In this document: in pieces, positions 23,085 to 25,711 of the stretch
Layout of the letters: the number at the start of each line of letters is the position of its first letter
How positions within the stretch are numbered: the stretch's first letter is position 1
IMG/VR virus record: IMGVR_UViG_3300010392_000805
Location: 1 to 25,855 of that record
Source of the DNA: a virus
DNA: 25,855 nt
Strand: one strand, 5' to 3'
Translations under genes and position numbers: made by a program
The notes under the pieces: model-generated
Told to the model about the DNA's origin: nothing
The model's database searches: none
Seen by the model: the letters and a program-made list of their open reading frames with translations, nothing else

Positions 23085-23300
23085 ATGGAGCGAGAAAAGC
23101 AAAAATATGTTGACGAATTCATCGCCGAGACATTAACAGTGTTCAAGAAGTCTCCGCTCACCGTGGAGATGAAGTTCCATCTGATGAGGCTCATAGAGTG
23201 GGAACACTTCTATGAGGCCAAGAGAAGGTCTGGGTCGGTGGAGGAGTTCGATCGCGATGTCGATTTACCCGGCAGTGAGGCCCAAGCAGGGCCGGGATAG
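23085..23300 (+). CDS. small charged protein upstream of the integrase, unknown
   Basis: A 71-residue, mainly helical protein (MEREKQKYVDEFIAETLTVF...) with no clear DNA-binding motif. It is in the place often taken by an excisionase or a small regulator, but there is no sequence support for that. CTGGGGC precedes the ATG. The stop is 100 bases before the integrase start. Confidence 0.5.
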   Translation: MEREKQKYVDEFIAETLTVFKKSPLTVEMKFHLMRLIEWEHFYEAKRRSGSVEEFDRDVDLPGSEAQAGPG

Positions 23301-23345
23301 CGTACAGGCCAAAAACCCTAGTCCGATAGCGGAGAACTTGGACAC

Positions 23346-23397
23346 CGGGGGGTATCCCCCGCTTGCAGACCTGCGAATAGCCCCCATGATTAGGGGG
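23346..23397 (+). promoter_or_regulatory. paired GC hairpins before the integrase start
   Basis: Two hairpins lie just 5' of the integrase: CGGGGG-GTAT-CCCCCG (23346-23361) and CCCCC-N7-GGGGG (23381-23397). The second stem's 3' arm, followed by ACT and then ATG 23401, is the Shine-Dalgarno-like sequence, so folding would hide it. Control of integrase translation is inferred. Confidence 0.45.
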
Positions 23398-23400
23398 ACT

Positions 23401-24300
23401 ATGTCGATCCCGATTACCGAAATCGTGCCGAAATGGGTGAAGGATCGCATTGAGCGGCTGAAACTCGACCGCACAGACTCCGAGAAATGCGGGCGAATCG
23501 TGCTTGCCGCCGCCGAGATGATGGGCTGGGAGACGACCGACGACATCACGCCCAAATCGTGCGTGGCGTGGCTCAATCGCCGGTCCACCGAGGACAATGT
23601 CTCGGCGGGGACCATGAGGAACCAGATGGGGGCCTTGCGGTCGCTGGGTCACTACCTGGTGCAGATCGAGCACTGGACCGAAAACCCGCTGGAGTCGGTC
23701 CAGACCCCGAAGGTCCGATCAAAGGAACGCGGGCCCGGGGCGCGGGCGTTCTCCGTCGCCGAGGTCCGCAAGCTGATCGCGGTCGCCGACCACCTTGAGC
23801 GCACCGACCACCGCACCGCCAAGTTCGGCAAACTTCGATCGACCTTCTACCGCTTCCTGTTCGAGACGGGGCTACGGTACGGCGAGGCGACCAGCCTGCT
23901 CGCGGGCGATGTGGATGTGGGCAACCGGCTGGTCCGCGTCAGAGACGACAAGGCGGGCCGTGGGGAGTCCGTGCCGATCGGCCCCGAACTGATGCGCGTG
24001 CTGTGCCGGTGGATCGACGATCAGGAACTGGACGGCGACGACCGGCTATTCCGCTCAGTGTCGCACCGCACCCTGACAGCCGACATGAAGCGGGCTGGCA
24101 TCCCCCGGCGTGTGGACGGGCAGGGCGGGCAATGGCACTGCTTCCGCAAGGGCATCGTGACGCACTACCTACAGAACGGTGTGGATATCAAAGCGGTACA
24201 GAAGTTGGCTCGGCACGCGACGGTGCAGACGACGCTGAACTTCTACTACCAGTTGAAGGATCACGAGGCGCGGGCTGCGGTTGATGGTGGGGTGGTGTAG
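23401..24300 (+). CDS. int: tyrosine recombinase (phage integrase)
   Basis: A 299-residue integrase that recombines attP with the host attB. The N-terminal residues about 1-100 are a SAM-like core-binding domain. The catalytic domain shows R159 (FETGLRYGEA), K184 (a DDKAGRG lysine), H246 and R249 (WHCFRKG), H272 (LARHATVQTT) and Y282 (LNFYYQ), the complete RKHRH/Y set. ATG 23401 is chosen because the upstream frame (from 23212) runs through the preceding gene in another frame and adds a non-conserved 63 residues. An att-like site lies about 250 bases downstream, on the usual int-att arrangement. Confidence 0.92.
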   Translation: MSIPITEIVPKWVKDRIERLKLDRTDSEKCGRIVLAAAEMMGWETTDDITPKSCVAWLNRRSTEDNVSAGTMRNQMGALRSLGHYLVQIEHWTENPLESVQTPKVRSKERGPGARAFSVAEVRKLIAVADHLERTDHRTAKFGKLRSTFYRFLFETGLRYGEATSLLAGDVDVGNRLVRVRDDKAGRGESVPIGPELMRVLCRWIDDQELDGDDRLFRSVSHRTLTADMKRAGIPRRVDGQGGQWHCFRKGIVTHYLQNGVDIKAVQKLARHATVQTTLNFYYQLKDHEARAAVDGGVV

Positions 24301-24372
24301 AAACACCGCGAGCCGCCCGCTTGCAACCCCCCACTTCCGGGACGACCTTGCAAAAAATCTGACAAACCACTT

Positions 24373-24384
24373 GCCCCCCGTGTC
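24373..24384. repeat. direct repeat, copy 2 (GCCCCCCGTGTC)
   Basis: This is identical to 23031-23042 and lies about 170 bases before the att-like T-arm, which itself contains the inverted form GACACGGGGG (24553-24562). It could be an integrase arm-binding site. Confidence 0.5.
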
Positions 24385-24387
24385 GAT

Positions 24388-24583
24388 TGAGCCGATAGTG
24401 AATCTGTCACCCGCCCGGCTCGCGCCGATACGCGAAAGCGAATCAACGAACCGATGAGCGGACCCAACCAAACGGCGGGTGACACTACCGGCGAGGCAAA
24501 TCCTCGCGGTTGGGTCTGCCGGGGTTCGGGTGTGTGAGGCTGGGAGAACCCCGACACGGGGGTTCGATTCCCCCCGGCTCCAC
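24388..24583 (+). ncRNA. candidate structured RNA with pseudoknot and tRNA-like 3' end
   Basis: Two perfect inverted repeats interleave: TGTCACCCGCC (24405-24415) with GGCGGGTGACA (24474-24484), and GACCCAACC (24461-24469) with GGTTGGGTC (24508-24516). This order is a pseudoknot. Further hairpins are CGGC-TCGC-GCCG (24416-24427), CGC-GAAA-GCG (24431-24440), GCGAGG-N5-CCTCGC (24491-24507) and CGGGGTTC-N18-GAACCCCG (24520-24553), followed by a T-arm. GAGCCG (24389-24394) could pair with CGGCTC (24575-24580) as an acceptor stem. This resembles tmRNA architecture, but I find no tag ending in LAA. The inverted repeats may instead be integrase arm sites, and the RNA may not exist. Confidence 0.35.
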
Positions 24584-24585
24584 TA
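24520..24585 (+). other. attP candidate: tmRNA or tRNA-Ala 3'-end copy
   Basis: A T-arm GGGGG-TTCGATT-CCCCC (24558-24574) is followed by the acceptor strand CGGCTCC and discriminator A (24575-24582), with U at position 70 as in alanine acceptors. The encoded end is CTA rather than CCA, so identity with the host gene may end at about 24583. GACAC just before the T-stem is like tmRNA (GGACGC). No full tRNA body precedes it. The location after the integrase suggests an attachment site. Confidence 0.6.
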
Positions 24586-24625
24586 AGGGCTAGCCCCCTC
24601 CTCCTGGCTGGCCCAATCATCCGAA

Positions 24626-24693
24626 CCCCTTTCGCAGCGAAAGCGGCGCAACCCATGCGGGTTGGTCGCGGACGCAACGGAAGGGGATTTTTT
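24626..24693 (+). terminator. large terminator-like hairpin with T-run before a start codon
   Basis: CCCCTTTCG (24626-24634) pairs with CGGAAGGGG (24678-24686), nine pairs with one G-T wobble, enclosing a sub-hairpin CAACCC-ATGC-GGGTTG (24649-24664). A and then T6 (24688-24693) follow, and the ATG is at 24694. GGAAGGGGA in the 3' arm is also a good Shine-Dalgarno for that ATG. Confidence 0.6.
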
Positions 24694-25101
24694 ATGTCTG
24701 GGCAGAAGCACACGCCTGGCCCGTGGATTCTCGATGAGGAATGCGACGGTCTGGTTCTGGCAATGGGGTCTCGTATTGAGAATCCGTCGAGTTACCAGAC
24801 GCACCACGAGATCGAACTGTACGAAGAGTATTCGTATGACGACTTCGAGCGAGAGCAACGCGAAGAGGCGTTTGCCAACGCCAGATTGATAGCAGCGGCC
24901 CCAGATCTTCTCGCGGCGTGCGAGAAGATCGTCGCTTGGCTCGATCGGCTTACCGCTGACGCTGAACGCGACAAGGCTTCCCGGTTCGTCACCATCGCTC
25001 GCGCCGCAACCGCAGATGCTGCGAACTTCCGAGCAACCGCCGCCGATGTTCGGAAAGCCATCGCCCGCGCCACCGCAGAAGTCGAGGTGGGCAATGGGTA
25101 A
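24694..25101 (+). CDS. conserved-type phage protein (HTPGPW / [12 protein letters not shown])
   Basis: A 135-residue protein with an N-terminal HTPGPW motif, a central [24 protein letters not shown] segment and a charged Ala-rich C-terminus ending [12 protein letters not shown]. The first two motifs are typical of a very widespread phage family of unknown function. The ATG at 24655 lies inside the hairpin, so 24694 is preferred. The last 14 codons belong to a 43-bp direct repeat that also ends the next gene. The stop overlaps the next start by 8 bases. Confidence 0.75.
25057..25099 (+). repeat. 43-bp direct repeat, copy 1
   Basis: This segment matches 25667-25709 at 42 of 43 positions (T at 25082 against G at 25692), 610 bases apart. 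Each copy spans the end of one gene and the start of the next. Confidence 0.8.
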
Positions 25102-25711
25102 GTCAGAAGGAACCTTGAAAATGGACATTCCCGACAGACTGAAGAAGCACAAGTGGTACGCGGAGCATCTCGCTTGGCTGCGTGAGAATGGATACGAAAC
25201 GCGGCACGATCCGGGCGGCGCAAAGCCGAGCCGTGCGAACCTGCGCGGTGCGGACCTGCGCGGTGCGGACCTGCGCGGTGCGGACCTGCGCGGTGCGAAC
25301 CTTCGCGGTGCGGACCTGCGCGGTGCATACCTGAGCAGTGCGAACCTGAGCGGTGCGCGAGGCATCCCCGACAGCGTTCCGACTATCCCAAACATCGACG
25401 CGACGATTCTTGCTGCTGTTGAGCAGGAAGGGAACTCGCTGGATATGTCGGCGTGGCATTCCTGCGAGACGACGCATTGTCGCGCTGGCTGGGCCGTGGT
25501 TCTCGCAGGCCAGTCCGGGAAGTTGCTTGAGGACTTGTACGGCACGAACGCCGCCGCCGCGTTGATCTACGCGAAATCTCGCCCCGACAAGCCGGTCCCG
25601 AACTGGCTGGCGAGTGATGAGGACGCGATGGCTGATCTGCGTGCGTGTGCAGATGAACAACTCGCCGCCATCGCCCGCGCCACCGCAGAAGGCGAGGTGG
25701 GCAATGGGTGA
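25094..25711 (+). CDS. pentapeptide-repeat protein with HCRAGWAV domain
   Basis: A 205-residue protein. Residues about 46-86 hold eight pentapeptide repeats of A(D/N)LxG type ([16 protein letters not shown]), which form a right-handed beta-helix. The C-terminal half has [49 protein letters not shown], a domain often seen in phage proteins after pentapeptide repeats; its function is unknown. The last 14 codons duplicate the end of the previous gene. A start at 25121 is supported by AGAAGGAA just upstream and would give 196 residues; I use 25094 because the same repeat carries the start of the following gene. Confidence 0.75.
25231..25350 (+). repeat. 15-bp tandem repeat (eight units)
   Basis: Eight units of CGGTGCGGACCTGCG-type sequence run without gaps. 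Units 2, 3, 4 and 6 are identical and the rest differ at one to four positions. They encode the pentapeptide repeats, and such identity is prone to slippage or recombination. Confidence 0.85.
25667..25709 (+). repeat. 43-bp direct repeat, copy 2
   Basis: This is the second copy of the junction repeat at 25057-25099. It contains the last codons of the pentapeptide gene and the start codon of the next gene. Confidence 0.8.

Follow-up and report, generated by a model that had tools for sequence, protein, structure and literature searches.

Temperate phages must fit gene expression to their state of integration, and the sib element of phage lambda is a precedent for an RNA near attP doing so. Integration separates sib from int. 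The element lies distal to int and lowers the production of Int (PMC5300877; PMC2951348). The 3' end of the tmRNA gene (ssrA) is a frequent integration site, group I introns occur in tmRNA T-loops, and the CDS-less tmRNA of phage DS6A is reported to inhibit the host tmRNA (PMC11915505). Near integrase genes, a pseudoknot RNA called the STAXI motif has been described (PMC2864571).

The window, meaning the whole 25,855-base virus record analysed here, encodes terminase, a portal/Mu-F protein, capsid, tape measure and a tyrosine integrase. Since structural genes and a tyrosine integrase occur together, the phage is temperate. It has no close relative among sequenced phages, and a search of GTDB genomes with the integrase returned neither a close relative nor a close prophage. 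The integrase gene (int) is at 23212..24300 on the + strand (Pfam Phage_integrase, 3.6e-21; phrog_1 integrase, 3.8e-38); its true start may lie further in than 23212, for example in the 23400s. Pfam matches the catalytic domain and, weakly, Int_N, and from its sequence the protein seems to be without an arm-binding domain. A structured element lies between the int stop (24300) and the next ATG (24694). The gene beginning there (24694..25101, +; phrog_1273) is the supposed target of the element, and its homologue in a related phage contig, L005, is 37% identical and starts at the same place. Elsewhere in the window, a NUMOD4/HNH homing-endonuclease-like gene is found close to the start (659-1168), and a pentapeptide-repeat protein is encoded at 25121-25711 by nearly perfect 15-base tandem repeats (GCGGACCTGCGCGGT).

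The attachment core and its orientation

Within the element, positions 24559..24583 (+) carry the T-arm, acceptor strand and discriminator A of the 3' end of a tmRNA gene. The relatives were collected by scanning IMG/VR for this 25-nt T-arm/acceptor sequence, which gave 20 loci, including L005, and by profile searches, which added the int relatives L063, L017/L064 and L065. In L005, L017, L063 and L065, the same sequence (TGGAGCCGGGGGG...) lies just 3' of int and is read from the opposite strand. One provirus accounts for both L017 and L006, which are its ends: L017 carries a complete tmRNA (154 bits) that finishes with the core, and L006 carries a second copy of the core. From these provirus ends and the core beside int, it follows that this integrase family inserts at the tmRNA 3' end. 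The window core is identical to that 3' end and adjoins int, and we are confident in assigning 24559-24583 as the attP core for integration into the tmRNA gene. The preliminary description had offered an attP as one of its two readings of the region. It was right about the tRNA-like end, while its suggestion that the repeats are integrase or excisionase sites is disfavored by the compensated stems described below.

A core made of T-arm and acceptor strand next to a tyrosine integrase is shared with prophages and islands in ssrA. The present case is unlike them in having a structured RNA, found in the window and L005 only, and in the orientation of the window core. That core is on the int strand, and is inverted relative to int, the pseudoknot and the arms of helix C (both described below) when compared to the cores of L005 (3876-3900), L017, L063 and L065. 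In addition, an 11-bp inverted repeat, CCCCCGTGTCG/CGACACGGGGG, at 24375-24385 and 24552-24562 flanks the pseudoknot. It repeats part of the tmRNA-derived core, oriented as is usual among the relatives, and is possibly a trace of the inversion of the window core or a chance match in a C-rich stretch. In three of the relatives, the integrase frame stays open through the att core (L017:3633-5285 (-), L063:2372-3601 and L065:2153-3559). The core of these may encode the integrase C-terminus (..WSRGxxxPR..), in which case integration would alter the end of the protein.

Interleaved helices between int and the core

The preliminary description had noticed an 11-bp and a 9-bp inverted repeat interleaved upstream of the core, and both are present where it placed them. 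The first (TGTCACCCGCC 24405-24415 / GGCGGGTGACA 24474-24484, +) forms helix A, pseudoknot stem 1. The second (GACCCAACC 24461-24469 / GGTTGGGTC 24508-24516, nine Watson-Crick pairs) extends into helix B, pseudoknot stem 2, with 12 pairs including one G-U (24458-24469 / 24508-24519, +); with the extended B, the two helices span 115 nt (24405-24519). The description considered chance interleaving unlikely, and the shuffles bear this out: a perfect interleaved 11+9 bp pair within 130 nt arose in 2 of 5000 dinucleotide-preserving shuffles of 24301-24693, and none occurs elsewhere in the window. The fold of 24386-24585 has a z of -5.1. The estimated energy of the pseudoknot is about that of nested folds, and we think it probable that A and B coexist as a pseudoknot rather than being alternatives.

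The further hairpins, T-arm and acceptor strand of the earlier account are likewise all found in the sequence. It placed the feature at 24388-24583, which stops too early, as conserved structure reaches about 24686. Near the 5' end is a conserved GAGCCG(ATA) (24389-24397, +) that can pair with CGGCTC at 24416-24421. P4 (CGGCTCG/CGAACCG, within 24416..24453, +) is invariant in the window and L005, hairpin P5 (24427-24444, +) carries a GAAA tetraloop, and hairpin P8 (24491..24507, +) lies between the 3' arms of A and B.

L005 provides the comparison by which these helices can be judged. Its integrase is 53-54% identical to that of the window over the aligned region, and the same kind of element follows int and precedes the homologue of the window's next gene. 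When the two phages are aligned from sequence only, the 5' and 3' arms of A each fall in matching columns. In seven helices (A, B, P5, P8 and the C, D and E described below), 57 pairs can be compared: 30 are unchanged, 7 are changed on one side, 20 are changed on both sides and none is broken. Helix A accounts for two of the double changes and one single change; B for four double changes among nine counted pairs; P5 for two and P8 for three double changes. When the changes in the 3' arms were randomized with the L005 5' arms fixed, all the pairs of A and B were kept in 0 of 200,000 placements. A and B had been named from the window alone by the preliminary description. The same randomization of single helices gave 0.0001 to 0.007, values that are optimistic for C, D, E and P8, which were chosen on the same two sequences. 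For A, P4 and P5, 93% of cells are paired, against no more than 40% when the partner is slid by 1-3 columns. An automatic pair count shows P5 of L005 as unpaired because MAFFT shifts it by one column, and hand placement restores the pairing; the shuffle control of that count (129 of 500) is powerless with two sequences. Also conserved in both phages are the GAAA tetraloop, GAGCCGATA, CGAACCGA and the CCUCCUCC loop of hairpin D. Where pairs in A, B and C are irregular, they read G-U on the + strand, making the int strand the likely RNA; this is moderate evidence, as the helix search itself permitted G-U on that strand.

Compensatory changes in the stems were what the preliminary description had proposed to look for in related phages, and in this one relative they favor an RNA. 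With 20 double changes and no broken pair in seven helices, the repeats speak for an RNA folded from the int strand and against binding sites for protein. The covariation is strong for a family of two members, the window and L005, whose phylogenetic depth is minimal, and a conserved RNA structure in the gap between int and the next gene is very probable. Were the repeats instead attP sites for integrase, excisionase or a host factor, the copies of each would evolve together and pairing would be a by-product. The region is indeed attP, and GGGGTTC recurs in the arms of C and in the core. At least seven different dyads would each need such co-evolution, however; the small hairpins P5, P8 and D compensate too, the irregular pairs are G-U on one strand, and the integrase seemingly has no domain with which to bind arm sites. 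We regard protein-binding repeats as quite improbable.

The other reading in the preliminary description was a shortened or relic tmRNA-like RNA, in which GAGCCG at 24389 and CGGCTC at 24575 would close the acceptor stem; such an RNA would have no CDS, like the tmRNA of phage DS6A. The T-arm and acceptor 3' strand are there, a CDS-less phage tmRNA has a precedent (PMC11915505), and a covariance search of the kind the description called for finds Rfam RF00023 at 34.6 bits against a cut-off of 47. However, att controls with unrelated 5' flanks score alike (L014, 35.3 bits; L006, 29.6 bits), and the 5' side of the L014 control is the end of an integrase gene. The match is therefore due to the 3' end only, and it falls below the message-less tmRNA-like RNAs of other phages (L004, 52; L015, 41.4). 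ARAGORN finds no tmRNA in the window region. By inspection, the GGxTTCGAC motif and a tag frame are absent, and position 1 is unpaired (T against C); the description itself had conceded the missing motif, the unpaired position 1 and the lack of a tag ending in LAA. Neither is there a closed 7-bp acceptor stem with G3-U70; position 3 is A-T, and the partner is not conserved in L005. The proposed pairing of GAGCCG is possible, but the CGGCTC at 24416 is equally able to provide it. L005 has its T-arm on the opposite strand, yet GAGCCG and the pseudoknot are unmoved. Since its core is inverted relative to the pseudoknot, the acceptor-stem reading is ruled out, and the only conserved partner of GAGCCG is the local CGG(U)CUC, which reads CGG(T)CTC in the L005 DNA. 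A relic tmRNA is accordingly the least credible of the explanations, to the point of being negligible. The CDS-less tmRNA of DS6A is alike in being a tRNA-like 3' end in a phage, and unlike in that the window has no acceptor stem or D-region motif and its 3' end is the att core.

Two other pseudoknotted RNAs bear comparison. The strand order of A5', hairpin domain, B5', A3', hairpin, B3' and next helix is that of the group I intron core (P3-P7-P8-P9). Unlike in an intron, there is no bulged P7, J8/7 joint or P6 here, and the T-arm is uninterrupted. Having found no Rfam match to a group I intron at E up to 10, a regular helix B and a P8 that directly abuts B3', we rejected this candidate. The STAXI motif is alike as a pseudoknot RNA near an integrase; it is unlike in being short and repeated, and there is no Rfam match to it here.

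Helices across the core and their possible regulatory role

The attP core and the structured RNA overlap, and the locus is neither a tmRNA nor a set of simple protein-binding repeats. Helix C (24521-24532 / 24618-24629, +) begins right after B and brackets the att core. It has three double and two single changes with none broken, and is predicted at 72-99.9% without the pseudoknot region. Enclosed by C are the core hairpin, which folds in either orientation of the core, and hairpin D (24587..24614, +). The loop of D is CCCTCCTCCT in the window, and the same hairpin in L005 (3912-3936) has a CCTCCTCC loop; three double and two single changes leave all its pairs intact. Hairpin E (24626..24693, +; arms 24626-24634 / 24678-24686, followed by ATTTTTT) has three double changes and a fold of -39.9 kcal/mol (z -5.2) in the window and -39.7 (z -4.8) in L005. 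In both phages, the next gene's ribosome-binding site (GGAAGGGG, a Shine-Dalgarno sequence in the window) lies within it, and the AUUUUUU (U6) stands directly before the start codon. Its form is terminator-like. A sigma-70-type promoter and a standard short-loop terminator were both looked for in the region, and neither was found.

The last four nucleotides of the C 3' arm (three in L005) are common to the 5' side of E. Partition-function folding puts the outer pairs of E at about 99% without the C 5' arm and at 2-27% (window) or 4-33% (L005) with it, so C and E are predicted to compete. Because the RNA spans the joining site of phage and host, integration must split it in two, and an RNA split in this way may report the integration state. 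We lean towards a cis-regulatory role across attP, exerted on the next gene or on int. Our preferred reading, which we hold tentatively and at a little short of even chances, is a structured RNA acting in cis, on the same strand as int, that covers the int 3' UTR, attP and the next gene's leader and is split by integration, in a logic resembling that of lambda sib. Against it, the more distant int relatives do not have the element.

A specific switch can be proposed from the loss of E pairs in the presence of C5' and from the parting of the C arms by integration. The 5' half of the RNA would be the two-stem pseudoknot of A and B with its inserted hairpins, and the 3' half would be a junction closed by C, containing the core hairpin and D, and then the terminator-like E over the ribosome-binding site. 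In the circular genome, given transcription through the region, the arms of C would be together; C would form first and take the CCCC needed by E, E would stay open at its base, the ribosome-binding site would be free, and the next gene would be on. Recombination at the core would send the C 5' arm, with int and the pseudoknot, and the C 3' arm, with E, to opposite ends of the prophage. In the lysogen, E would then close and turn the next gene off, acting as a terminator or on translation. However, the overlap of C and E is just 3-4 nt. Also, when the full window leader is folded with nested pairs only and the pseudoknot left out, the C 5' arm is trapped and E stays closed, so the pseudoknot would have to prevent that trapping; its role would perhaps be to keep the arm free, or it might bind a factor. 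We consider this integration-dependent switch, modeled as it is, rather doubtful. The same doubt applies to the broader proposal of a new class of pseudoknotted phage RNA, with a helix split at attP, in which recombination rewires a terminator/antiterminator or ribosome-binding-site switch with no protein sensor. If the switch works, it would be a compact, protein-free reporter of the recombination state.

The duplexes might serve int instead. By analogy with lambda sib, the target of C, D and E would be the int message upstream of them, which they would affect by way of RNase III or by serving as its terminator or stabilizer; integration would take C3', D and E away from int and so change its expression, and the next gene would be incidental. 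The layout is that of sib, in that D, C3' and E lie beyond attP from int in both phages and would be parted from it by integration, and E ends in U6. On the other hand, a regulator of int alone would have no use for a hairpin covering the next gene's Shine-Dalgarno sequence, as E does in both phages, and some function would still have to be found for the pseudoknot, which remains beside int after integration. We judge an int retroregulator of this kind unlikely. Both loci have an RNA element near int beyond attP, some of which is parted from int by integration. They differ in that the fold here spans the crossover core with one C arm on each side, includes a pseudoknot, and places its last hairpin over the ribosome-binding site of the next gene.

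The loop of D raises a different prospect, a stand-alone small RNA from the int-attP gap acting in trans, with the CCUCCUCC loop binding Shine-Dalgarno sequences. That loop is conserved in both phages, and there is a weak match (E = 1) to the alphaproteobacterial sRNA ar14, an RNA with loops of that kind. The ar14 match is at chance level, though, no promoter was found, and an exact search of the phage for the GGAGGAGG target returned none. The att core is also inside the unit, and integration would cut the gene. Such an sRNA is decidedly unlikely. In the preferred reading of a cis-acting RNA, the fold itself crosses the recombination point, and the case shows that one and the same stretch can be an attP and an RNA region overlooked by annotation pipelines and Rfam.

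Further members and tmRNA-like RNAs in other contigs

IMG/VR scans, GTDB integrase searches and a covariance model gave no third member of the family. IMG/VR pattern scans for the pseudoknot motifs returned L005 as the sole true relative, and a search by the bare pseudoknot topology was too permissive for use. One candidate, L119, had two promising stems, but these are inside a coding sequence with no further similarity, and it was rejected. A covariance model of the 5' half, run against 225 kb of the loci, matches only the window and L005; a 21-bit match in the L004 contig was discarded, since its whole center is missing. In L017, L063 and L065, which are also int relatives, the att core is present and no homologous pseudoknot accompanies it. 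Among the families of Rfam 15, none reaches its gathering score in the window, and L005 has only weak sub-threshold matches. One further contig, L024, is a 99% match to the L005 integrase and ends inside that gene.

Several other tmRNA-like genes were observed in viral contigs. L004:14520-14607 (-) and L015:1937-2021 (+), from one metagenome, are tmRNA-like RNAs of 85-88 nt without the message part. Their acceptor stems are closed, including G3-U70, the one in L015 is directly 5' of a tRNA-Pro gene, and both are similar to the CDS-less DS6A tmRNA. ARAGORN also identifies tmRNAs at L009:5116-5430 (-) and L013:1359-1687 (-) whose predicted tags, of 24 and 29 aa, are unusually long; both tags start with GK and finish with LMAA.
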